Shown here in pieces: positions 2,680 through 38,568 of a DNA stretch of 40,668 nucleotides. The position numbers were made by a program, and so were the translations under genes. The notes under the pieces were generated by a model, which was not told where the DNA came from, searched no databases, and saw only the letters and a program-made list of their open reading frames with translations. The DNA is from a virus. Positions within the stretch are counted from its first letter, which is position 1, and each line of letters opens with the position of its first letter. Location of the stretch: positions 1-40,668 of IMG/VR virus record IMGVR_UViG_3300044733_000924; one strand, written 5' to 3'.

Positions 2680-4041
2680 ATGAGCAAAAGATCTGGTAGA
2701 AAATCACAAGCGACAAACGATTTCTTAGAGCCGCAAAAACCAATAATTAATTCTGTTTCAGATGTAGGAACGGGAAGAGCATATAATAATGGATCCGCTA
2801 TTATTTCTTTTGAATTGCCAGCAGGATCACCAGAAGCATCTTCTTTTACAGTAACTTCAAGTCCTACAGGATTGACAGTTAGTGGGTCGTCTTCTCCATT
2901 AACAATGACTGGACTAGCATCAAATACAAGTTATACATTTACAGTTTATGGAACTAATTCATACGGAAACTCTGTATCTTCAGACCCATCTTCATCTATA
3001 TTGGTAACTACAGTACCGCAGGCACCAGTTTCTCCGTCAGTATCTTCTTCTGTAGCAAACAGAGATGATGTTACATGGACTGCCCCAGAAACTGGCGGTA
3101 AAGCAATTTCATCATATACCGTTGTATCAAGTGATGGGCCATCATATGAAAATATTACAGTCACATCACGTAATATTGACGAAACTGGTGGGCAGACACA
3201 AAGTTATACCGTTTATGCAATTAATGCTAATGGAACATCTACTGGTGCTTCCACGAACTCAGTAACTACTTTCTTTTCTCCACCGTCATTCTTTGCACCT
3301 CCAGGATTCTTTAGTCCTCCAGGATTCTTTAGTCCTCCAGGATTCTTTGCACCTCCAGGATTCTTTGCACCTCCAGGATTCTTTGCACCTCCAGGATTCT
3401 TTGCACCTCCAGGATTCTTTGCACCTCCAGGATTCTTTGCACCTCCAGGATTCTTTAGTCCTCCAGGATTCTTTAGTCCTCCAGGATTCTTTGCACCTCC
3501 AGGATTCTTTGCACCTCCAAGATTCTTTGGCCCACCATACTTTAGCAAATGCTTACATGATGACACGCCAGTAACAGTTGTTGGTGAAAATGATTCTATT
3601 GAGTATAAATCAGCAAAAGATGTTCAAGAAGGTGACTGGATATGGGCAGTAGATATTCAAGAACTGCCAGCAGATGAAGCTGCTTATTCATCATTATTTT
3701 GGTCAAGTCCAACAGCAACATTTGGAGAGCTGGTAAAAACAGAAGTTATTAATAAATATACTTCTCTAGCAGAAGAAACAATTATTATTAATAATGATCC
3801 TTCTTCTAGGTTTACAGCAGAGCATCCAATGTTTATTACTAGAAACGGACAAAATAGTTTTATTTTGGCTGGATCAATTCAGGTTGGAGACATATTATCT
3901 AAACATGATTCGAACGGTAATATTATTTCAGAAGAAATTATATCTTTAGAGGTAATTACCGAAGAATGTACTGTTCATACCTTCAACGCAGAACCATATG
4001 ATTTAATTTATGCCAATGGCATATTAACGCATAATAAATAA
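2680..4041 (+). CDS. Fibronectin-III / PPGFF-repeat protein with C-terminal Hint domain
   Basis: A 453-residue virion protein in three parts. Residues about 16-195 form two fibronectin type III-like domains (LTGLxxxTxYTFxVxxxNxxG pattern). Residues 200-289 are fifteen hexapeptides, mostly APPGFF or SPPGFF. Residues 291-452 are a Hint (intein-like) domain: Cys291 begins it, block B is TAEH (Thr379, His382), and it closes with ANGIL, Thr, His451-Asn452, followed by a single Lys453 and the stop. There is no homing endonuclease insert and no C-extein nucleophile, so normal splicing is not possible; N-terminal thioester cleavage or transfer of the upstream part to a nucleophile is what related bacterial intein-like domains do. 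A good ribosome site (AAGGAG, 2665-2670) precedes the ATG. It sits directly before six prolyl-hydroxylase-type genes. Structural role and processing are inferred; the domains are clear. Confidence 0.85.
   Translation: MSKRSGRKSQATNDFLEPQKPIINSVSDVGTGRAYNNGSAIISFELPAGSPEASSFTVTSSPTGLTVSGSSSPLTMTGLASNTSYTFTVYGTNSYGNSVSSDPSSSILVTTVPQAPVSPSVSSSVANRDDVTWTAPETGGKAISSYTVVSSDGPSYENITVTSRNIDETGGQTQSYTVYAINANGTSTGASTNSVTTFFSPPSFFAPPGFFSPPGFFSPPGFFAPPGFFAPPGFFAPPGFFAPPGFFAPPGFFAPPGFFSPPGFFSPPGFFAPPGFFAPPRFFGPPYFSKCLHDDTPVTVVGENDSIEYKSAKDVQEGDWIWAVDIQELPADEAAYSSLFWSSPTATFGELVKTEVINKYTSLAEETIIINNDPSSRFTAEHPMFITRNGQNSFILAGSIQVGDILSKHDSNGNIISEEIISLEVITEECTVHTFNAEPYDLIYANGILTHNK
3277..3546 (+). repeat. 18-base tandem repeat encoding PPGFF hexapeptides
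   Basis: Fifteen in-frame 18-base units without gaps. Units 2-13 read (A/S)PPGFF; units 1, 14 and 15 are degenerate (SPPSFF, APPRFF, GPPYFS). Two unit types alternate, one starting GCACCT (Ala) and one starting AGTCCT (Ser), in the order A S S A6 S S A, with the rest of the unit identical at base level. This pattern indicates expansion by unequal exchange or slippage. Confidence 0.95.
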
Positions 4042-4043
4042 CC

Positions 4044-4072
4044 TAGACATTTTTAGATTATTTTGCTATAAT
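4044..4072 (+). promoter_or_regulatory. Promoter of the oxygenase cluster
   Basis: TAGACA (4044-4049), a 17-base spacer and TATAAT (4067-4072) with an extended TG one base upstream. Expected transcription start is near 4079, about 20 bases before the TTG start of the first oxygenase. The same TAGACA/17/TATAAT arrangement recurs at 38575-38603. It makes the oxygenase block at least partly independent of the upstream fibre genes. Confidence 0.7.
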
Positions 4073-4098
4073 AAATAAACTAGTAGAAAGAATTTATT

Positions 4099-4716
4099 TT
4101 GCAAAAAATAGAAGTAGGATATGGTATTTGGCTGTATGAAAACGTATTTCCAGATTCTCTTAATTTAATTGAAAGAGTAGAGAGTACAATAAAACAAAGC
4201 AACGGAATATATTCCTGGAAAGAAGCAATGGTAGGATGGAAGAAAAAAATTCCAGAATATAGAAATTGTTTAGATTTTAAAATTGCAAAATCCAATAATT
4301 TTTCTATTATAAAAAATAAAAGTAGTCTAGAATTACAATCTATTTGGCAGGACTCTTATAATGCTCAAAAGGAATGTTTAGAAGACTATTCAAGTATGTA
4401 TAATATTAAATTAAATTATTGGGAATCATTTAATTTTGTTAAATATACAGAGGGTCATCATTTTGAAGAGCACTCAGATCACGGCGACGCATATGTTTGT
4501 ACAGTTTCTGGAGTAGGTTATTTAAATGATAATTATGATGGTGGCGAATTATATTTTCCAAAATTAAACATATACATTAAACCAAAAGCTGGGCAATTAT
4601 ACTTATTCCCATCTTCTTTTATATATTCTCATAAATCGCTACCAATAAAATCTGGTACAAAATATTCGATAGTAACAATGTTTGATTATAACGATAAGCA
4701 TCATAAAGGAGTATAA
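4099..4716 (+). CDS. 2OG-Fe(II) oxygenase, prolyl-4-hydroxylase type (copy 1)
   Basis: A 205-residue member of the 2-oxoglutarate and Fe(II)-dependent dioxygenases, which hydroxylate side chains (proline in the best-known members) while turning 2-oxoglutarate into succinate. The iron triad is His125-x-Asp127 (EEHSDHG) and His178; Lys188, ten residues on, is placed to bind 2-oxoglutarate. The family hallmark YLNDNYDGGELYFP, then KPKAG and LFPS, is intact. Start is TTG at 4099; no in-frame ATG lies before the conserved start (GYGIWLYENVFPDS), which lines up with copy 2. It is the closest relative of copy 2 in this cluster (shared DYS, LNYWESFNFVKY, HSDHG). The two genes abut at 4716/4717. Cytoplasmic, no signal peptide. 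Substrate unknown; the neighbouring Pro-Pro-Gly protein is a candidate by position only. Confidence 0.85.
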   Translation: MQKIEVGYGIWLYENVFPDSLNLIERVESTIKQSNGIYSWKEAMVGWKKKIPEYRNCLDFKIAKSNNFSIIKNKSSLELQSIWQDSYNAQKECLEDYSSMYNIKLNYWESFNFVKYTEGHHFEEHSDHGDAYVCTVSGVGYLNDNYDGGELYFPKLNIYIKPKAGQLYLFPSSFIYSHKSLPIKSGTKYSIVTMFDYNDKHHKGV

Positions 4717-5412
4717 ATGTTAGAAAATGCAGAATACTTAGCACCAGGAATTATGGTCTATAGAAATGTTTTTACAGAGTCAATGAATTTAGTTGCAAGA
4801 TTAGAAAATGAATTATCAAAAGAAAACAACCCATATAAATGGAAAACTGCAAAAACAGGATATAATCTAGAAGATAAAAGATATAGAGATTGTGCCGATT
4901 TTAAAATAAAAAGTAATCCTAATGGATATTTGATGCTAGGCGGAGAAAGCGTCCCCCCAGAAAATAAAAAAGAAACTGAATATGCTTTAGAAAAAATTTG
5001 GGAAGATTCATACGTAGCACAGATAGATCCAGTTAAAGACTATAGCAAAATGTTTGGGCTTGCTCCTTTAAATTATTGGGAATCCTTTAATTTTGTTAAA
5101 TACGGAGAAGATCAACATTTCCAAGTTCATTCTGATCACGGATATTCTTATATCTGTGTGCTCTCATCAGTCGGATATATAAATGACGATTATGAAGGCG
5201 GAGAGTTATTTTTTGATAAATTTAATTTAAAAATTAAACCAAAGGCTGGCGATCTATACCTATTTCCTTCATCTTATATATATTCTCACGCAGCTATGCC
5301 AGTCACAAAAGGTGTTAAGTATTCTATAGTAACTATGTTAGACTATCTAGAAGCACCACATACTCCAGAATATAGAGAAATAGAAAAAAAATATACAGAA
5401 AATTATGCATAG
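4717..5412 (+). CDS. 2OG-Fe(II) oxygenase, prolyl-4-hydroxylase type (copy 2)
   Basis: A 231-residue paralogue of the preceding gene. The iron ligands are His138-x-Asp140 and His191, with Lys201 at the usual +10 position for 2-oxoglutarate. YINDDYEGGELFF, KPKAGDLYLFPSS and KYSIVTM are conserved. Against copy 1 it carries an insertion around residues 66-90 and a C-terminal extension of about twenty residues that is rich in Glu, Tyr and Pro. Ribosome site AAAGGA (4705-4710) precedes the ATG. The stop codon TAG shares its last base with the GTG start of the next gene, so translation is likely coupled. Catalytic class is clear; substrate is not known. Confidence 0.85.
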   Translation: MLENAEYLAPGIMVYRNVFTESMNLVARLENELSKENNPYKWKTAKTGYNLEDKRYRDCADFKIKSNPNGYLMLGGESVPPENKKETEYALEKIWEDSYVAQIDPVKDYSKMFGLAPLNYWESFNFVKYGEDQHFQVHSDHGYSYICVLSSVGYINDDYEGGELFFDKFNLKIKPKAGDLYLFPSSYIYSHAAMPVTKGVKYSIVTMLDYLEAPHTPEYREIEKKYTENYA

Positions 5413-6116
5413 TGTATAAAGTTACAGCCTATAAAAATAATAACTCTGCAAATATTTCTCAAATAAATATTAAAAGAGACTGGATGGACAATACAGTAGA
5501 TGGTCATGCATATAAGTGTTTTCCAGTAACATTAGCAAATGGCTTAGGGTGGGGCCTTTCATTTCCAAAAGATATTTCTTTTGTATGGGACGGAATATCA
5601 GACACATCTGGAAATCATGTTAAAATATTAGAAGGCGAAGAATACTGCTATACAGAAAGAGCTAATGCAACAATAAGTTTTAAAACTGGAATAGTATTTG
5701 AAACAGATAAAGATGTTAGTTTGTTACAAATGCCAGTTCCAAATATGTTTATAGATGGGGCACAAGCATTTACTACAATTATAAGTACATCATTTTTTAA
5801 AGGAGAGTTTCCCTGTGCATTAAGAATTACTAAACCTTTTACAAAAATTACTATAAAAGCTAATCAACCATTTATATCAATTGTTCCAATATCTTTATCA
5901 TATTTACAAAACTCTATAATTGAAATTGACAATTATAAAAATATAAAAAATAATGTAGTTTTAAAAGAAGAAGAGCACGTTAAAATTGTTAAAGAAAAAA
6001 CAGATAGCGGTAAGTGGACTAATTTTTACAGAGATGCAGTAAACTATAAAGGTCAAAAAATAGGAGAGCATGAAGTAAAAGCAATAAGACTTTATGTTAA
6101 TAATAAAAATGAATAA
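5412..6116 (+). CDS. DUF6065-like protein
   Basis: A 234-residue protein that I recognise as DUF6065-like from the order RDWMDNT, HAYKCFPVTLANGLGWGLSFP, F.WDG, then a strand-rich second half ending in PFISIVPI. No HxD...H iron triad is present, so it is not itself a canonical 2OG oxygenase. DUF6065 proteins have no established activity that I know of. The GTG start overlaps the preceding stop codon by one base and has no clear ribosome site, which suggests coupled translation with oxygenase copy 2. The C-terminal 60 residues are Lys/Glu-rich. Its placement inside the oxygenase run suggests a partner function (adapter, substrate carrier or linked enzyme), but that is inference. Confidence 0.6.
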   Translation: MYKVTAYKNNNSANISQINIKRDWMDNTVDGHAYKCFPVTLANGLGWGLSFPKDISFVWDGISDTSGNHVKILEGEEYCYTERANATISFKTGIVFETDKDVSLLQMPVPNMFIDGAQAFTTIISTSFFKGEFPCALRITKPFTKITIKANQPFISIVPISLSYLQNSIIEIDNYKNIKNNVVLKEEEHVKIVKEKTDSGKWTNFYRDAVNYKGQKIGEHEVKAIRLYVNNKNE

Positions 6117-6828
6117 AATTATTTTTCATTCTTCAAGGCCATATAACAAAGACTCAAAAGACTTTTTGCCAGTACCAGCAAAATTAAGCATTCCCAATTG
6201 GTTTTCCCAAGCAAGTAAATATTGGAAAAACGATGATGGATCTTATGTAACTGATAATTTTGGAGAAAGAGGACTTGGATTTAAGTCTTGCCCAGCGTTA
6301 CTAGATTCATTTTCTTTAGGGTATCTTTTAAAAACTCCATGTGATTTAGCTTTTTACGAATATAAAGGTGAGATATACGTAGAAACGCCAAAAGGATATG
6401 AAGAGTTTTGTGCAAGAAGAGAAAAAATGCCAGAGTTTGTGGTACCAAGTGGATATAGAGAAACTCATTTTCATTGGTGGCCAAATTGGGCTATGGAGAC
6501 CCCCAAAGGATATAGCTTATTAGTTTTAAATCCCCTTAATAGATTTGATTTACCATTTTTAACAACTAATGGTATTATAGATAGTGATATGTATACTATA
6601 TCTGGCCTTATTCCATTTTTTTTAAAAAATGATTTTGTCGGGTTAATTCCAAAAGGAACTCCGTATGCACAAGTAATTCCATTTAAAAGAGAGGATTGGT
6701 CGATGGATCCAGTCCTTCATGAAAAAAAAGAAATGGTAAAAAAACACGTTAAGACTGCTAAAAATTTTAGAGTAAAAGGCGGAGGAATTTATAAAAAAAA
6801 TATTTGGGTACCAAAGGAATATAAATAG
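6109..6828 (+). CDS. Conserved phage protein, distant DUF6065-like relative
   Basis: A 239-residue protein of unknown function. I place the start at ATG 6109, within the last codons of the upstream gene (another in-frame ATG lies at 6094). Motifs along the chain: PVPAKLSIPNWF near the start, then SCPALLDSFSLGYLLKTPCD, HFHWWPNW, KGYSLLVLNPLNRFDLPF, NGIIDSD, and PKGTPYAQVIPFKREDW, closing with a basic tail. The order of these blocks parallels the preceding DUF6065-like protein (CFPVTLANGLGWGLSFPKD; SLLQMPVPNMF; PFISIVPI), so both probably share a fold. No iron triad is seen. It ends ten bases before a strong ribosome site for the next oxygenase. Function unknown; genes of this kind are, to my knowledge, seen in marine and freshwater phages. 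Confidence 0.6.
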   Translation: MNKIIFHSSRPYNKDSKDFLPVPAKLSIPNWFSQASKYWKNDDGSYVTDNFGERGLGFKSCPALLDSFSLGYLLKTPCDLAFYEYKGEIYVETPKGYEEFCARREKMPEFVVPSGYRETHFHWWPNWAMETPKGYSLLVLNPLNRFDLPFLTTNGIIDSDMYTISGLIPFFLKNDFVGLIPKGTPYAQVIPFKREDWSMDPVLHEKKEMVKKHVKTAKNFRVKGGGIYKKNIWVPKEYK

Positions 6829-6837
6829 GAGGCACAT

Positions 6838-7557
6838 ATGTTTGAAAACGCTAAAGGAAAAGACATAATTCAAAATGTTGATTCTATAAACGATAATAAG
6901 TATATTAGAACAGCAAGGCAATCAATAACACCTTCTGGCTATTTCGGATCATCTTCAGATATGATACAAGAAATAGAAAACTTTTTAACAAATGAAGAAC
7001 AAGAATTTTTATTAAATTTTGCTAAAAATAATAAAATTTGGGATGTTACAGAATCCCATTATAATGAAAATGGAACAATAATTTATGATCATAGGGTATG
7101 GGAAAATAGAGTAGCCACACTTAATACTTTAATGAAAGCAAATCAAGATGTTGTTCTAATGCTAAGAAATATTATAGATAGATTAAAACCTGTTATTGAA
7201 TCATTTTATAATGTAGAGGCCATGTCTACCCACCCAGCTATTGTACGTTGGCCAAAAGGAACATATCAATTCCCCCATGCAGATAAAGAGTTACACGAGG
7301 GCCCAGACGCAGGAAAAGAAAATGACTTCCCATGGTACGATTTAGGAACAATATTTTATTTAAATGATGACTATGAAGGCGGGGAGTTACATTTTCCAAA
7401 ACAAAATATATCATTTAAACCAAAAGCTAGAGCAGCATATTTTTTCCCTGGAGATATGAATTATATTCACGGGGTTAATGTTGTTAAAGAAGGATGTAGA
7501 TACACATCTCCTTGGTTTTGGACCATAACTAAATTAAAGGATGACAATAATGTATGA
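6838..7557 (+). CDS. 2OG-Fe(II) oxygenase, prolyl-4-hydroxylase type (copy 3)
   Basis: A 239-residue oxygenase. Iron ligands His147-x-Asp149 (QFPHADKEL) and His211, with Arg221 in place of Lys at the +10 position that binds 2-oxoglutarate; both residues occur in the family. YLNDDYEGGELHFP and FKPKARAAYFFPG are intact. The first 45 residues are an extra N-terminal segment, followed by IENFLTNEEQEFLL, the usual opening of prolyl-hydroxylase-type domains. A strong ribosome site (TAGGAGG, 6826-6832) overlaps the end of the upstream gene. It shares little with copies 1 and 2 outside the catalytic core, so the cluster was built from divergent lineages and not from one recent duplication. Substrate unknown. 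Confidence 0.85.
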   Translation: MFENAKGKDIIQNVDSINDNKYIRTARQSITPSGYFGSSSDMIQEIENFLTNEEQEFLLNFAKNNKIWDVTESHYNENGTIIYDHRVWENRVATLNTLMKANQDVVLMLRNIIDRLKPVIESFYNVEAMSTHPAIVRWPKGTYQFPHADKELHEGPDAGKENDFPWYDLGTIFYLNDDYEGGELHFPKQNISFKPKARAAYFFPGDMNYIHGVNVVKEGCRYTSPWFWTITKLKDDNNV

Positions 7558-8275
7558 TATAAAACAACATAAAGACGATGTTTTTACAATAGATAACTTT
7601 TTAAATGAAGACGAATGCAAAAGAATTATAGATTATTTAGAAATGTCTGTGCAGAATGATTACATAAAATGGAATCAAATTTCTTTTTATGAATCGTATG
7701 CTATGGGTTTTTGGGAATATGATAATAATTTAATTCCGTTTGGTTTTGACCCAAAATATTTTCACAGCCTTAAAGAAAAAATAAAAAATGCTGGAGAAAT
7801 TTGTTTTAACAATAAGCTGTCTGAAATTAGTTATCATGCACAAAAATGGACAGAAGGAGCATTTGCAGGATTTCATTCCGATAACTCTGATGAACACGGT
7901 AACCCTACAGCATTTCAAAGAAGTAAATATGCAATATTTTTATATTTAAATGATAATTTTGATGGTGGAAATTTAAATTTTGAACATTATCCAATTAATA
8001 TAAAACCAAAAACTGGAATGATTTCAATATTTAAAGGTGGATATAAGAATGAGCACGAAGTAACTACAGTTAAAAATGGAGAGAGATATACTATTGGATC
8101 ATTTTGGGACGATGCAGATGCAGTCTACACAGATGAAGAAAAAGCTAAATGGGAAGTGGAACTAAAGGGAATAAGATCAGAACAAGATTTAATGTATAAA
8201 AAATGGGAACAAGATAGACAAAATGGAATAATTCCAACATATAAGAGTAAATACGAAAAGGAGAAAAATGCATGA
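7550..8275 (+). CDS. 2OG-Fe(II) oxygenase, prolyl-4-hydroxylase type (copy 4)
   Basis: I choose the ATG at 7550, because AAAGGA (7536-7541) is then at normal ribosome-site spacing; the in-frame ATG at 7541 lies inside it. This gives 241 residues. It opens FTIDNFLNEDECKRII, typical of the family. Iron ligands are His109-x-Asp111 (AGFHSDNSDEHGN) and His169, with Arg179 for 2-oxoglutarate. The hallmark reads YLNDNFDGGNLNFEHYPINIKPKTG. Residues after 190 form a charged, probably helical extension of about fifty residues. The start overlaps the previous gene by eight bases and the stop overlaps the next start (ATGA), so the four genes of this half are co-translated. Substrate unknown. Confidence 0.85.
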   Translation: MYDIKQHKDDVFTIDNFLNEDECKRIIDYLEMSVQNDYIKWNQISFYESYAMGFWEYDNNLIPFGFDPKYFHSLKEKIKNAGEICFNNKLSEISYHAQKWTEGAFAGFHSDNSDEHGNPTAFQRSKYAIFLYLNDNFDGGNLNFEHYPINIKPKTGMISIFKGGYKNEHEVTTVKNGERYTIGSFWDDADAVYTDEEKAKWEVELKGIRSEQDLMYKKWEQDRQNGIIPTYKSKYEKEKNA

Positions 8276-9090
8276 GTAACCAGTATCAAAGAATAGTAAT
8301 TTATCCAAAAATAGAGGTATATAGAAATTTATTGCCAAATGTAGAAGATTTATATCAAACTATGAAAGAATCTGAAAAAACATCTGATGGCAAATACTAT
8401 TTAAGAAAATGGGATAAGTGGTCAGTTTTTGGAACCTATACTCAACAAAAACACGAAGATTCAGAAGCTAGAGAGTATGGCGAAATGTATGATAAAGAAA
8501 AACTTTTATCTGATAGTGTTTATGAAGCATATAACATTGCAATAAATGAATATATAAAAAACAATAATGTTGTTATGCCAGAGGGAGCGCAATTAATGTC
8601 TTCCTCATTTTCAAAATATAAAAAAGATTTAGATGTTTTAGAAAATAATCTAGCAATGCAGTATCACACAGATTTTAAAATATTTGAAGCTGAATGGCCA
8701 GGTTCAAAGTTTTTTTTAACATGCACAACATACATTAATGACGACTATGATGGTGGAGATATTGAATTTTTTATAGATGGACAATTTGTTTCACACAAGC
8801 CAAAAGCGGGAGACATTTTAGTCTTCCCTTCAGTGCCACCATATTTTCATGGAGTAAAAACAATTAAAAAAGGAGAAAAGTTTTTTGTAAGAAACTTTAT
8901 TACCTATATTTCAGACGGGTCACAATCTTGGTTAAATAGTCAAAAAATTTATGGACCTAGAGAATGGCTTAAAATAGAAGAAGAAAGAATTAAAAGAGAA
9001 ATGCCAGAAGCAATGCTTTATTTTGAAGATGGAAAACAAATAAAGTATTCAGAAAAAATGAAAAATAATGAAAACAACAATACTATGTGA
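8272..9090 (+). CDS. 2OG-Fe(II) oxygenase, prolyl-4-hydroxylase type (copy 5)
   Basis: At 272 residues this is the longest of the six. Iron ligands are His132-x-Asp134 (MQYHTDFKIF) and His193 (PPYFHGVKT); Lys203 is at the +10 position. YINDDYDGGDIEFFIDG, KPKAGDILVFPS are conserved. After the core there is a helical, charged extension from about 215 with GPREWLKIEEERIKREMPEA. It starts in an ATGA overlap with copy 4 and its last 23 bases overlap the next start. The N-terminal 60 residues (RIVIYPKIEVYRNLLPNVEDL) resemble the openings of copies 1 and 2. Catalytic class is clear, substrate unknown. Confidence 0.85.
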   Translation: MSNQYQRIVIYPKIEVYRNLLPNVEDLYQTMKESEKTSDGKYYLRKWDKWSVFGTYTQQKHEDSEAREYGEMYDKEKLLSDSVYEAYNIAINEYIKNNNVVMPEGAQLMSSSFSKYKKDLDVLENNLAMQYHTDFKIFEAEWPGSKFFLTCTTYINDDYDGGDIEFFIDGQFVSHKPKAGDILVFPSVPPYFHGVKTIKKGEKFFVRNFITYISDGSQSWLNSQKIYGPREWLKIEEERIKREMPEAMLYFEDGKQIKYSEKMKNNENNNTM

Positions 9091-9670
9091 TAATGTTGTA
9101 TATTATGAAAATTTAATTGATGATTTAAATCATTTTATTAATTTAATTAATGATGTAGAACAAGAAAATGCAAATATTTTTTCTAATTGGAAGCCATGGT
9201 ATGCTAGTAATGCAAATGTGCTATATGGAGAATTTAGAGAGGCTTCATTTACAAATATATTAAATAATTGTAATGAAGAATCAAGTTCTTTTATTATTGC
9301 AAAAACTCTTAAAAACTTAATAGATTTTTGTGTAGAGGATTATTGTAAAAAAACTAATCAAGATTCTGGGTACATGCCAGACCATTTTACAATAAGAAAA
9401 TATAATACAAGTGCATACATGGGTCCTCACGTAGATACGGAAGATATTTATAACATTAAGCAACCATCAATTTCAATGGTATTCTATTTAAACGATGATT
9501 ATGAGGGTGGAGAAATAGAGTTTCCAAATCAAGGAATTAAGATTAAGCCATCTGCTGGAAGCTTAGTAATTTTTCCATCTTATCAGCCATATATGCATGA
9601 TCCAAAACCAACAAAATCTGGTTTAAAATATATGATACCTCTTTTTTGGTTTAAAGAGAAATTTTGGTAA
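9068..9670 (+). CDS. 2OG-Fe(II) oxygenase, prolyl-4-hydroxylase type (copy 6)
   Basis: A 200-residue oxygenase that closes the cluster. Iron ligands are His121-x-Asp123 (GPHVDTED) and His177 (PYMHDPK), with Lys187 at +10 for 2-oxoglutarate. FYLNDDYEGGEIEFPNQGIKIKPSAG is the family hallmark, split here only by a Ser for Lys in the KPKAG block. The start ATG lies inside the end of copy 5 (23-base overlap, different frame) with only a weak purine-rich stretch upstream, so translation is probably coupled. A separate promoter follows immediately for the next gene. Substrate unknown. Confidence 0.85.
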   Translation: MKTTILCDNVVYYENLIDDLNHFINLINDVEQENANIFSNWKPWYASNANVLYGEFREASFTNILNNCNEESSSFIIAKTLKNLIDFCVEDYCKKTNQDSGYMPDHFTIRKYNTSAYMGPHVDTEDIYNIKQPSISMVFYLNDDYEGGEIEFPNQGIKIKPSAGSLVIFPSYQPYMHDPKPTKSGLKYMIPLFWFKEKFW

Positions 9671-34072: not shown

Positions 34073-36034
34073 ATGGCAGCATATCAAGATTTATTAAAAG
34101 ACACCTCAGTTGCCGTAGAAAACGGTAATTATTTTGTCGTAACTATTACAGATCTTGAATTAAATACAAACTACCCAATTCAACTTAGATGGAAATATAA
34201 AGATGGAACATTTGGATTATGGTCTGCATCAAAAGTTTTAACTACTCCAGGAGAAACTCTTCCAGGAACTCCAGACCTACCAGTTGGCAGTGTAACTGCA
34301 GAGCCAGGTTTAATTAAAATAACTTGGAACGGAAATGATGCAGCTGGCAGAGCAATTACAAATATAGATAGAATTGATATATATATTGATGGTTCTCCAT
34401 TCGATGGAACAAAGCCAGCAGGAAGTTTTAAAGCTGCAGGCACACAAACAATTGCAGCACCAGCAGGAGAGTATGCAGTAGCATTATATGCTATATCAAA
34501 TTATGGAAGTAGATCTGCAGTAAGTTTACCAAGGTCAATATTGGTTCCAGCAGTTGGAGAAATTGTTTTATCTCCAGAAGATCCAGACACACCAATAGTA
34601 ACTGCAGGACTAGCTTCTGTTATTGTTGAATGGAGCGGTAAAAGTTTAGATACAAATGGCGACCCAGTAGACTTTACTAAAGGTAGTTTTGCTGGAGCAA
34701 AAGTATTTATAGGAACAGCATCTAACTTTACACCAAGTAACGATAACTGGGTTCACACATTAAATTTTGCAAATGGATCAAATAAAGTTTCAATAGGTGT
34801 TGGAACTATTATTGATAAAACACTAGGAACACTTCTTCAATATGGAGTTCCGTATTATATTAAAATAGATACAATAAATGCTAATGGGGTTGCAAATGGG
34901 CAACCAGTTTCTGCAGACGGTAACCCAATTACTGTATTAAAATTACCAGCTAGCGAAATAAGTACTGGTACATTAACTGCAGATAACTCAATTACAGCAG
35001 GAGTTAGCGGAGGTCAAAGAGTTGTTATATCTGGAAGCTCCTCTCCATTTATTATCTATGGAACAGACGGAACTACAAAATTATTAGAATATTTAACATC
35101 TGGAACTACTGGGACACTTGCAATAAAAGGATCTGGAACATTTACTGGAGATTTAGAAATAGGATCAGGCAACACAATATTTAAAGCTGTGCCAGCAACT
35201 GGAATCTGGTTAGGAAATGCTAACTATTTAAGCGCTCCATTCCGTGTATCTAATAGCGGATATATTACAGCAACATATGGAGATATTGGTGGATGGAATT
35301 TAGGAGAGTCTTACCTACAAAACTCTACAGGAACTTTAAAAATAAATAGCGGAACAGATCCAAATATATTTTTAGGAAGTAGTTCTGGGTATCATTTTAG
35401 ATTAACCCCATCTTCCATCTCTCATTATAATGGCGGATCTCCAACTGGTAAATTTACATTAACAGCATCTCCTGGAACTGGAGACTCACATTTATCTATG
35501 TCTGGAAATATAACTGGCTCAACAATTACAGGATCTTCTTTTACATTAGTAGAAGGAAGCACTGACAATGTATGGAATACTACAAGATTTAGAATTGGAG
35601 ATTCAAATACAAAAATTGAATCTATAAATGCTACTGGAGTAATAACATTATATTCAGGACAACTACCTGCTGATATTGAAGGCGGAGGCGCTGGTACTTA
35701 TCTTGATTCAAAAATAGAATTAAGTACATCTGGTTTAAAAATATATAATATTCCTACTCTTGGAAATAATGTAACTGCAATAGGTAGACTAACACTAAAT
35801 GCAGATGGAACTAGCGGAGCACCAAATACGGCAATCACTCAGTATGGGTCTGAGTATCCAGCAAGCACAGGGTACGGATCAGCTGCAAGACAAAGAATGA
35901 TTGTTTCTGATCCTTACAATAATAACATGTTAAAAAGAGGTTTTGGCGTGTACTACGGAACTAGAACTACTGCACAAGCAGAACCATCTCCTACCACAGG
36001 AGTTGTTGGAGATATCTGGATTAGCTGGGCCTAA
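34073..36034 (+). CDS. Fibronectin-III tail tip / central fibre-like protein
   Basis: A 653-residue protein. Three fibronectin type III-like units occupy residues 1-58 (partial, NTNYPIQLRWKYKDGTFGLWS), 65-160 (PVGSVTAEPGLIKITWNGND) and 165-290. After LPASEISTGTLTADNSITAG comes a beta-structured part with ATYGDIGGWNLGESYL, the segment found at the C-terminal region of central fibre (gpJ-like) and related tip proteins. The chain ends QAEPSPTTGVVGDIWISWA. ATG 34073 lies one base after the previous stop without a ribosome site, so translation is probably re-initiated. The stop shares a base with the next ATG. Confidence 0.7.
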   Translation: MAAYQDLLKDTSVAVENGNYFVVTITDLELNTNYPIQLRWKYKDGTFGLWSASKVLTTPGETLPGTPDLPVGSVTAEPGLIKITWNGNDAAGRAITNIDRIDIYIDGSPFDGTKPAGSFKAAGTQTIAAPAGEYAVALYAISNYGSRSAVSLPRSILVPAVGEIVLSPEDPDTPIVTAGLASVIVEWSGKSLDTNGDPVDFTKGSFAGAKVFIGTASNFTPSNDNWVHTLNFANGSNKVSIGVGTIIDKTLGTLLQYGVPYYIKIDTINANGVANGQPVSADGNPITVLKLPASEISTGTLTADNSITAGVSGGQRVVISGSSSPFIIYGTDGTTKLLEYLTSGTTGTLAIKGSGTFTGDLEIGSGNTIFKAVPATGIWLGNANYLSAPFRVSNSGYITATYGDIGGWNLGESYLQNSTGTLKINSGTDPNIFLGSSSGYHFRLTPSSISHYNGGSPTGKFTLTASPGTGDSHLSMSGNITGSTITGSSFTLVEGSTDNVWNTTRFRIGDSNTKIESINATGVITLYSGQLPADIEGGGAGTYLDSKIELSTSGLKIYNIPTLGNNVTAIGRLTLNADGTSGAPNTAITQYGSEYPASTGYGSAARQRMIVSDPYNNNMLKRGFGVYYGTRTTAQAEPSPTTGVVGDIWISWA

Positions 36035-38568
36035 TGTCAGCAAAAATTTATGTTAAAGTTACACAAGATTTGTGGAAGCCAGCAAATAGAATTTATGTTA
36101 AAGTTACACAAAATTTATGGAAACAAGTAAATAGAATTTATGTCAAAGTTACACAAAATTTATGGAAAGCTACATTTGGCGCCGATAACTCACCAGTACA
36201 AATAACTAGACCTAAATTAACTGGAACTGGTAGAGTTGGAACTACAGTAACTAGATCCTCTGGAACATATAGCAATTATAATTCATTAATTACTAGAATA
36301 TTTTATACAACTGAAGTTGCTGTTCAATCTTCTGGGTCTACCGATGATCCTAGTGGAGGAAATGTAACATCTACAAATCCATATACAATTACTGAATACG
36401 ATGCAAATCCACCGCCATATTATTTTTATGCAAGAGATGAAGTAGTTGGAGTAGATAATGTAACCTATTATTACTACAGCACACCTCCAATTGAAGCACA
36501 AGTTCCATCTTTGTCAGATGATTTTAATAGAACTGTATCGGTTGGATTAGGTACTGCAAGTGGTGGATTTACTTATGGCGGACCATCAAGAGGCAACAAT
36601 ACCTGGAGTGTAAATGGAAGCAGGGCAGTAAATTCTTCTGGCGATTTAGGCGACAACCCAATGAAAACTGTTGATGCAGGTAGTTTTAACCAATCGGTTT
36701 CTGTTGATACTTTTGGTGGTGGCCTTGGAGCAGCAGTATGGGTAGCATCAACATCTTCTTTTTGGTCAGTAGTACCAGATTATACATATATATTAAATCC
36801 AGGTGATGGCTTTGTTTATAGATGTTCAACTAATTTAACTACAATATACGATCCAAATGAAGATTGTCCACCTTTAGCAATATTAGGATCAAATCCACAA
36901 TCTGAAGGATATACATTTAGTGATGTTGGATTAAGATGTAGTGCATGTACTACATCAACAACAAATGTAACAACTTATCCATGCACACTTTCAGCAACAT
37001 CATACTCATGTCCAGACACTGGTCCATTAGGCGGAGATAGGTGTACTTCTTGTGCAACTTCTAGTAGCTATCCATGTACTGGAAGCATAGTTACAACTTC
37101 AACCTGTCCAGATTTTGGATCAATAGGTGGAGATAGATGCACTGCTTGTACAGAAAATGCAACTATAACAGAGCAGTTAACTTGTTCTGGATCAAATTCA
37201 GGAAGCACTTGTCCAGGAACTGGAAGCTTAGCAGGACAAAGATGCGGTGCTTGTAACTCTGTTGCAGCATGTACTGGATCACAAGTTTCTACAACCTGTC
37301 CAGATACTGGACCAAACGTAGGAGATAGATGTGGATCTTGTTCAGGAGAACCAGAAACAATTTCTGTATTAACCTGTTCTGGATCTGATAGTTCGACATC
37401 TTGCCCAGGTACTGGAAGTTCTGTAGGACAAAGATGTGGTGCTTGTAACTCTTTTGCATCATGTAGTGGTTCTACTACAACTAGTTCATGTCCAGATACT
37501 GGACCAAACGTAGGAGACAGATGTGGTGCTTGTTCAACAAATATAGATTCTTACATTACAATAACTTGTTCTGGTTCTAGCTCTGGAGGATCTTGCCCAG
37601 GTACTGGAAGTAGTGTTGGACAAAGATGTTCATCATGTAGTTCATCTACATCAACTTCAAATCTTTGTACTGGTTCTAGCAGCTCAGCATCTTGTCCAGG
37701 CACTGGGCCAAATGCTGGAGACCGATGCGGTGCATGTTCTTCTAGCACTTCAACATCTTATTCATGTACTGGATCAGGTACATTTGCATCACCACAATCA
37801 ACGGGAGGTTGTAACGCAAGTAGAGTAAACCTGGCATGTTCATTTACTGGAACATCTGGAACTGGAGATAGGTTAAGATATAACTATACATTATGTCGAG
37901 CAAATAGCACTACAACAAATACTTATGCTATAAGACAAAGTGTAACAACAACAACCTATAGCTGGTCAACAAATCAATCTCAAACCATAACAACAACAAG
38001 CTATAGCTATTCAGTTAGAGTACAAGCTTATACTTATTCAACTAATGCTTATCAAAATCAAACAATAATATATTATACTTATGCAATTAGACAACAAGGA
38101 TATACATGGTCAACAAATGCGCTTGAAAATGTTACAACATATACTTATACATATCAGGTAAGAGATACAGCACTTGGATACATATACACTAAGAGAGATA
38201 CTGTTACTGAAGAAGTTACTAGAAAAACATATTATGCAGTAGAAGAAGTTTCTGCAGATGTGTATACTTATTACTCAGAATTAAAACTTTATCAATTTGT
38301 CGGCGCTAGTCCAACCTTAATTGATTCAAAAATTATAGCTACTTTTGAAAATGAGCCTGGACTTGAATTTAATACAACTTATTATATTCCAATAAATAGC
38401 GTACAGGCAGAAACTTCAGGAAATACAATTACTGCAACTGGGCAAACAAGCAGCTCTTCGGGTAGCGTAAGCTATATTTATGGGGGATCTAAAGGATCAT
38501 ATGTGGGTGTAATTGCTATGGCAGCAGTAACAAATCAAGGAAGTACGTTAGACAATTTCTCAGCCTAA
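36034..38568 (+). CDS. Large tail protein with Cys-repeat and Tyr-rich repeat stalks
   Basis: An 844-residue protein of modular build. Residues 5-45: three copies of a 15-residue NRIYVKVTQNLWK-type unit. About 52-160: Ig-like domain (PKLTGTGRVGTTVTRSSGTY). About 163-270: LamG-like sandwich (LSDDFNRTVSVGLG, NTWSVNG). Residues 302-575: nine RCxxC units, eight of them as CP(D/G)xGxxxGxRCxxC, joined by short Ser/Thr stretches with further cysteines. Residues 630-735: Tyr-rich units YAIRQ...YxWSTN. The end is a Ser/Gly-rich beta domain. The cysteines could bind metal (knuckle-like CxxC) or form disulfides on the virion outside the cell. No signal peptide. I recognise the modules, not the whole protein; an adhesin or fibre role is inferred. 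Confidence 0.65.
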   Translation: MSAKIYVKVTQDLWKPANRIYVKVTQNLWKQVNRIYVKVTQNLWKATFGADNSPVQITRPKLTGTGRVGTTVTRSSGTYSNYNSLITRIFYTTEVAVQSSGSTDDPSGGNVTSTNPYTITEYDANPPPYYFYARDEVVGVDNVTYYYYSTPPIEAQVPSLSDDFNRTVSVGLGTASGGFTYGGPSRGNNTWSVNGSRAVNSSGDLGDNPMKTVDAGSFNQSVSVDTFGGGLGAAVWVASTSSFWSVVPDYTYILNPGDGFVYRCSTNLTTIYDPNEDCPPLAILGSNPQSEGYTFSDVGLRCSACTTSTTNVTTYPCTLSATSYSCPDTGPLGGDRCTSCATSSSYPCTGSIVTTSTCPDFGSIGGDRCTACTENATITEQLTCSGSNSGSTCPGTGSLAGQRCGACNSVAACTGSQVSTTCPDTGPNVGDRCGSCSGEPETISVLTCSGSDSSTSCPGTGSSVGQRCGACNSFASCSGSTTTSSCPDTGPNVGDRCGACSTNIDSYITITCSGSSSGGSCPGTGSSVGQRCSSCSSSTSTSNLCTGSSSSASCPGTGPNAGDRCGACSSSTSTSYSCTGSGTFASPQSTGGCNASRVNLACSFTGTSGTGDRLRYNYTLCRANSTTTNTYAIRQSVTTTTYSWSTNQSQTITTTSYSYSVRVQAYTYSTNAYQNQTIIYYTYAIRQQGYTWSTNALENVTTYTYTYQVRDTALGYIYTKRDTVTEEVTRKTYYAVEEVSADVYTYYSELKLYQFVGASPTLIDSKIIATFENEPGLEFNTTYYIPINSVQAETSGNTITATGQTSSSSGSVSYIYGGSKGSYVGVIAMAAVTNQGSTLDNFSA
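36046..36168 (+). repeat. 45-base coding repeat at the start of the Cys-repeat gene
   Basis: Units 36046-36090, 36091-36135 and 36136-36168 (partial) encode IYVKVTQ(D/N)LWK followed by a 4-residue joint. The second and third are almost identical in DNA. Confidence 0.9.
36932..37738 (+). repeat. Cysteine-rich protein repeat array
   Basis: Nine RCxxC motifs between residues 302 and 568. Units alternate between CPDTGPNVGDRCGAC-like and CPGTGSSVGQRCGAC-like forms in the middle of the array, so a double unit was probably duplicated. Confidence 0.9.
37924..38246 (+). repeat. Tyr/Thr-rich protein repeats
   Basis: About four units of 24-27 residues starting YAIRQ, YSVRV, YAIRQ and YQVRD, each with a Y-x-(W/Y)-S-T-N-like middle in the first three. 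The alternation of Tyr/Thr with hydrophobic residues suggests a beta-fibrous stalk. Confidence 0.7.

Follow-up and report, generated by a model that had tools for sequence, protein, structure and literature searches.

We describe here a gene cassette in the virus record IMGVR_UViG_3300044733_000924, whose full 40,668 bases (positions 1–40,668, referred to as the window in the following) probably derive from a freshwater bacterial virus. Between positions 2680 and 9670, it encodes a protein with a proline- and phenylalanine-rich repeat array and, downstream of it, six oxygenases of the prolyl-hydroxylase type, which we term ox1–ox6. We consider it likely that this stretch is a phage array-plus-hydroxylase cassette, in which ox1 and ox2, together with some or all of ox3–ox6, hydroxylate the array protein. 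On balance, we also lean towards a more general view: phages of freshwater bacteria would use non-collagen proline polymers (xPPxFF, PFF, PFGFT and VTPP) as fibres or adhesins, each matured by its own set of oxygenases of the prolyl-hydroxylase type, one to nine in number and matched to the array, within an exchanged cassette. This would constitute a dedicated hydroxylation of virion-protein prolines, with enzyme and substrate co-evolving.

The array protein (453 residues, 2680..4041, plus strand) begins with an fn3 region that scores above the Pfam cut-off (PF00041; 34.3 bits vs 25), was modelled by AlphaFold2 with high confidence (approximately residues 20–200) and retrieved tandem fn3 domains in the top rows of a Foldseek search (E 1.6e-10). 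It continues with 14 contiguous xPPxFF hexads in a single register (residues 200–283; 3277..3528), twelve of which are PPGFF; the preliminary description of this DNA had correctly placed twelve such units directly upstream of the oxygenases, leaving the fn3 and Hint-like parts unmentioned. The array is predicted to be disordered, with low AlphaFold2 confidence (blocks of about 39–60 in the predicted local distance difference test, pLDDT). The C-terminal part (residues 291–453; 3550..4038), modelled mostly with high confidence, is a candidate Hint/intein-like domain that has the motifs of such domains: it starts with CLHDDTPV, contains TAEHP (the TxxH of block B) and ends with HNK. Across 29 aligned relatives, the first Cys and the last Asn are invariant, and the block-B His is lost in many. 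The domain thus shares the first Cys, TxEHP and the terminal HN with known Hint domains and inteins, but differs from them in having one residue after the HN and a Pfam score below the curated cut-off (PF14890; 19.1 bits vs 35.8, E 0.0012); ten of the 29 relatives match this family at E<=0.01. The 50 Foldseek rows shown appear to track the fn3 part, not the Hint-like end. Judging from the tail-type neighbours and the fn3 domains, the protein would be located in the virion, probably as a fibre or adhesin. It is absent from cultured phages at E<=0.01. In locus L017 (9634–10341, minus strand), the array is followed by a tail-type module of another kind, the Peptidase_S74 domain of endosialidase chaperones, as the C-terminal part.

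To place this array in context, we scanned IMG/VR for two adjacent PPGFF units and for FFPFFPPFFP, and obtained at least 120 stretches with each. The P, P, F and F positions are kept in 1230, 1230, 1230 and 1228 of the 1230 units from 102 distinct hexad arrays, a match at three or more of the four being required for a unit to be counted; the codons at these positions vary synonymously. From this pattern, we take the P and F positions to be under purifying selection. PP is preceded mostly by A, S or G and is followed by Gly in 662 units (54%), the remaining units having S, L, A, R, N, V, T or another residue there; PPGFF is wholly lacking in 4 of 105 hexad-array proteins. Related phages bear PFF, PFGFT or VTPP arrays together with related oxygenases, and proline is the only residue that these arrays and xPPxFF have in common. 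Five bacterial contigs (L516–L520; two from Gordonia, one from Streptomyces, and one each from a Nitrosomonas and a Bacteroidota metagenome-assembled genome) also contain DNA that, in one frame or another, matches two PPGFF units in a row.

The six enzymes are encoded on the same strand as the array protein. Next to the array lie ox1 (4099..4716; TTG start; group G1w) and ox2 (4717..5412; group G2), which belong to the array-adjacent class, group G2 accompanying PPxFF arrays in the loci examined; the core oxygenases ox3 (6838..7557; group C3), ox4 (7541..8275; C4), ox5 (8272..9090; C5) and ox6 (9068..9670; C6) follow after two intervening genes. As the preliminary description had noted, all of them carry the HxD...H iron triad and, exactly ten positions after its last His, a basic residue for 2-oxoglutarate (2OG); the open reading frames are also present at the starts it lists, with 7550 given for ox4. 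The distal His follows 53–64 residues after the HxD, the basic residue is K in ox1, ox2, ox5 and ox6 and R in ox3 and ox4, and all six enzymes exceed the curated cut-off of PF13640, the 2OG-Fe(II) oxygenase superfamily. These residues are likewise conserved in the enzyme-group alignments. The family phrog_61 is matched by ox1–ox4 and ox6, and the cultured relatives of ox2 among the matches listed are at most about 38% identical to it. For five of the six enzyme-group profiles, the best PDB match is a prolyl hydroxylase at E<1e-6: the Bacillus anthracis prolyl 4-hydroxylase (P4H) 3itq is the best or joint best match of G1, G2, F1 and C3, and the nearest PDB sequence to ox2 itself; human prolyl 3-hydroxylase 1 (P3H1; 8k0e) is that of C4 (E 4.9e-11 over profile positions 118–185, next best 2.6e-4); and the viral P4H of Paramecium bursaria chlorella virus 1 (PBCV-1; 5c5t) is that of C6 (E 3.9e-9). 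The sixth, C5, matches P3H1 weakly (E 0.0023).

The reading of these genes as enzyme and substrate is carried by their linkage in other genomes. We called oxygenases at a threshold of 25 bits, with a hidden Markov model seeded with the six enzymes of the window, and dropped loci in which less than 3 kilobases (kb) followed the array. The 3 kb after the array contain an oxygenase in 67 of 71 xPPxFF loci and 77 of 81 PFF loci, as opposed to 4 of 39 loci with collagen-like GPx arrays; with similar array proteins removed, the counts are 40/42, 56/60 and 4/39, respectively. A base-rate control with random 15-mers yielded 9 stretches only and was not used. The linkage also holds in the reverse direction. 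Loci fetched with the ox4 alignment, regardless of arrays, numbered 80, or 74 after removal of six that were already among the loci collected; 56 of them hold an array, and the other 18 have less than 2.5 kb upstream of the cluster. Every one of the 46 clusters with at least 2.5 kb upstream has an array, in a sample that shares several contigs with the array scans and is therefore not independent. Clusters lacking an array in relatives, which the preliminary description had named as evidence that would count against it, thus had no clear case among these 46. Where arrays had no oxygenase in their locus, we traced them to the whole records and found PF13640 in 16 of 28; of the 12 others, ten are at most 14.5 kb long and two are larger. 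The association of arrays and oxygenases is not due to chance, given the company they keep across many contigs, and the pairing, as far as sequence comparison can tell, is real and strong.

Moreover, the type of enzyme follows the type of array. In a tree of 365 enzymes, taken from the window and 60 non-redundant array loci, the core groups C3–C6 are common to both the xPPxFF and the PFF type, whereas the groups at positions 1 and 2 are tied to one of them. Among 87 non-redundant operons, PFF arrays are accompanied by F1/F2 in 54 of 54 cases, xPPxFF arrays by G1/G2 only in 27 of 31, and two mixed arrays by G1. A single clade (62 tips, support 0.87) unites F1, F2, G1, G2, the S1/S2 enzymes of short arrays, the VTPP-adjacent enzymes and one enzyme from PFGFT phages (L202, L212), and excludes the core groups as well as 12 sampled other viral oxygenases.

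The short array proteins (about 106–172 residues) are found, for instance, in L025, L031, L033, L074 and L079, in records of 70–162 kb in which no match to the window portal was found. In loci of the L029 type, a convergent oxygenase gene lies 9 bases past the array gene, followed by more oxygenases and a DUF6065-like gene. The N-terminal part of these proteins is PASTA-like by eye; Pfam finds no family in L029, and the L194 array protein has a PASTA domain above the Pfam cut-off.

The VTPP scan was meant as a control and had a mixed outcome. Of 48 non-redundant VTPP arrays with at least 3 kb downstream, 12 have an oxygenase, all within the 19 that end in a Cys-rich tail and none within the 29 without such a tail, a split that was chosen after the rows were seen. 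In L600, L616, L618, L621, L642 and L647, the oxygenase lies within 3 kb downstream of the (VTPP)n array with its Cys-rich tail; L657, L658, L662, L683, L706 and L707 are further loci of this kind. In 11 of these 12 loci, the array-adjacent class is the closest group to one of the enzymes. VTPP loci have one to three oxygenases, and groups C4 and C5 are missing in the rows seen; this smaller complement may mean that the enzymes which P/F arrays have in addition serve features peculiar to those arrays.

Relatives of the window phage provide a finer comparison. We collected 50 records with relatives of its portal; PF13640 hits number four or more in 16 of them and one to three in 9, and are absent from 25. 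A hexad or PFF array is present in all 16 of the first group (11 hexad, 5 PFF) and in 0 of the 34 others, for which the nominal p of 2e-13 overstates the evidence, since some records are near duplicates. We had asked, before reading the sequences, if the Hint-like protein of the phages with few oxygenases bears another proline array. Indeed, the orthologous fn3 protein contains (PFGFT)n in six of six such records examined, out of eight of that type, and the ninth record with few oxygenases (G030) has VTPP repeats. The 25 records without PF13640 have coding-strand collagen-like arrays in eight loci (L224, L229, L231, L232, L234, L241, L242 and L243), as GPx fibre genes 5' of the portal, and one VTPP array (L250); in ten of their loci, the upstream DNA does not reach far enough to tell what occupies the usual array position.

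Even between close relatives, the cassettes differ. L195, L198 and L199 combine xPPxFF arrays with G1/G2, and their portals are 89–96% identical to that of the window. L193, L194, L196 and L201, with portals in the same range of identity, combine PFF arrays with F1/F2, or with F2 alone in cut loci; with L266 included, F1/F2 replace G1/G2 in PFF relatives whose portals are 78–96% identical. In L193, L194 and L196, the cluster is followed downstream by an array gene, and a second array is seen upstream in G007 (the record of L196) and in L730 (from the record of L194). The portal tree, with 42 tips after ten relatives with short upstream DNA were left out, shows nine changes of state (none, G or F), the state "none" including phages later found to have PFGFT or VTPP arrays. 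By contrast, the core-enzyme tree shows only about three changes of array type, vs at least 21 in 500 shuffles, and we therefore conclude from the trees that array and enzymes move as one block that is exchanged between close relatives.

Together, these comparisons best support one part of the preliminary description, the pairing of the oxygenases, as enzymes, with the neighbouring repeat protein as their substrate. Its collagen-type specificity for Pro-Pro-Gly does not stand. Pro-Pro-Gly as such is not conserved, as Gly fills little more than half of the units and some proteins lack PPGFF altogether, and the hexad period (not a triplet), the enzyme clade shared by PFF, PFGFT and VTPP arrays, and the GPx fibres without PF13640 speak against a collagen-type system. 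We therefore rejected a collagen-type P4H acting on such sites as the defining feature.

Several observations weigh against our interpretation. The records share ancestry, so that the counts are not independent and linked inheritance could explain part of them; the small number of array-type changes on the core-enzyme tree points the same way. The collagen-like control is richer in G+C (median 0.53 vs 0.36), and its low-G+C part has an oxygenase in 4 of 14 cases. PFF arrays occur without PF13640 in G087 (L311, 38 kb) and G088 (L371, 53 kb), as does a VTPP array in L250/G039, and 36 of the 48 non-redundant VTPP arrays have no oxygenase. The matching of enzymes to arrays is not strict, as 4 of the 31 xPPxFF operons also have F1 or F2 and seven loci fetched with ox4 have G1 with PFF arrays. 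Furthermore, viral loci often encode such oxygenases with no PPGFF array nearby: no open reading frame with two PPGFF units was found in 52 oxygenase loci (L136–L187), where the search was for this array type alone. Finally, a control oxygenase also matches P3H1 and P4H (E 3e-4 to 5e-4), and for this reason we rejected the nearest PDB neighbour as proof of substrate; the phage of this control later proved to have a PFGFT array.

What we infer from the comparisons is that the array protein is the substrate and proline the modified residue, and likewise the order of the steps, a processing by the Hint-like domain and the biological effect. The protein would be a fibre or adhesin whose tandem fn3 part carries a flexible Pro/Phe array closed by the Hint-like domain. 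As the dedicated array-adjacent clade, ox1 and ox2 would hydroxylate the array prolines, with 4-hydroxylation as the most likely outcome, and further hydroxylations of the array protein may come from the core set ox3–ox6, in whole or in part; the P3H1-like ox4 perhaps makes 3-hydroxyproline. With hydroxyls added, the repeat, otherwise very hydrophobic, could gain solubility and stiffness, or could differ in what it adheres to.

The alternative that survives best, although we regard it as unlikely, is a host-range island in which array and oxygenase genes are merely co-inherited and the enzymes act on other fibre proteins (of the Mtd_N or Laminin_G type), on the DUF6065 proteins or on the host surface. 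The movement of the block as a unit, evident from both trees, agrees with such an island, as do the other tail-type genes flanking it and the DUF6065-like genes found in nearly every operon. Co-inheritance, however, does not lead one to expect that enzyme type follows array type, or that the linkage persists in other arrangements, such as the downstream arrays of L193, L194 and L196 and the convergent genes of the short-array class, and with four array types, when the collagen-like fibres of the same clade go without oxygenases. With still less probability, the array is the substrate but its non-proline residues (Phe, or Ser, Ala and Gly) are hydroxylated, as in the tailoring of ribosomal peptides, six to nine enzymes then reflecting the residue types. 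FF is as invariant as PP in the hexads, more enzymes accompany P/F arrays than VTPP arrays, and ox4 weakly matches the NCBIfam model for the peptide-maturation oxygenase YhhC (E 1.8e-5, far below the cut-off); yet Phe-free VTPP arrays still have an oxygenase of the array class, and the nearest solved relatives are prolyl hydroxylases. A role of the oxygenases in auxiliary metabolism or nucleotide modification, with their place beside tail genes an accident, is very improbable: viral 2OG oxygenases are usually listed as auxiliary genes, and the PHROG names "DNA endonuclease V" and "ferrochelatase" are attached to matching families, but the linkage is two-way and array-specific, and PF13640 is the only confident general domain.

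Between ox2 and ox3, the cassette encodes two further proteins on the plus strand. The first (5412..6116) exceeds the cut-off of DUF6065 (PF19541) and is present in 85 of 86 operons with space for it; the second (6094..6828), a phrog_7084/DUF6065-like protein, is present in 79 of 86. The AlphaFold2 model of the latter (pLDDT 93.8) resembles a barrel of the trimeric dUTPase type (best Z 10.1 in VIA, best E 1.5e-3 in Foldseek), which suggests a trimeric partner protein. A literature search, with subscription papers and preprints outside its reach, returned nothing on DUF6065 or PPGFF, and no phage title for prolyl hydroxylase, bacteriophage and hydroxyproline. Ahead of the oxygenase genes lies a sigma-70-type promoter-like site (4044..4072, plus strand; TAGACA-17-TATAAT, with TG before the -10 element). 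The preliminary description had assigned the oxygenases a separate promoter here; the site does match the consensus at 11 of 12 positions, but it is no more than promoter-like, and its region has 52 such matches vs 38.4 (standard deviation 5.9) in shuffles. Downstream of the oxygenases follow a Laminin_G_3 protein, a portal-like gene (called by similarity to annotated portals) and a protease-like gene (called by eye). Among the matches listed, the relatives of the portal are from Streptomyces phages (55–58% identity), and an actinobacterial host is our guess. Directly 5' of the array gene, the window encodes an Mtd_N-type tail protein with repeats around HESDTTNIHGIAD (3–2666), and at 36034–38568 a fibre-like Cys-rich protein with SCPxTGxxxGxRCxxC repeat units.

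2OG oxygenases are widespread in aquatic phages. The pairing proposes a substrate and a target residue, along with an enzyme clade that is diagnostic, and gives this common enzyme class a testable substrate. By this pairing, one should be able to guess the array of a phage from its enzymes, and its enzymes from the array. Should it hold, it would add a post-translational layer to phage fibres and supply small soluble hydroxylases for non-collagen repeats.

A number of known systems resemble the cassette in part. PBCV-1 encodes a P4H that is thought to form hydroxyproline in viral proteins (Eriksson et al. 1999, cited in PMC9301287); like the window enzymes, it is a viral 2OG oxygenase, and it is the best PDB match of the ox6 group, but it is a single enzyme of an algal virus, whereas the window phage has an operon of divergent paralogs tied to, and exchanged with, a repeat protein. 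The Bacillus anthracis P4H (3itq/5hv0) is the nearest solved sequence for the ox1, ox2, ox3 and F1 group profiles, albeit as a low-level match of about 75–115 residues in the catalytic domain only. The phage 2OG-Fe(II) oxygenases of PHROG 61, from cyanophages and others, belong to the same superfamily as the window enzymes, with substrates unassigned in the excerpt of PMC12774648 that describes them. Collagen-like phage tail fibres also place proline-rich repeats in fibre genes, but these are Gly-X-Y triplets and, in the clade of the window, occur without any oxygenase. Another likeness is the collagen set of P4H, P3H1 and lysyl hydroxylase, in which several 2OG oxygenases likewise serve one proline-rich repeat protein, and to which ox1, ox2 and ox3 (P4H-like) and ox4 (P3H1-like) correspond by best PDB match; the window array, however, has a period of six, no triplets and no requirement for Gly, and its enzymes are single and small.

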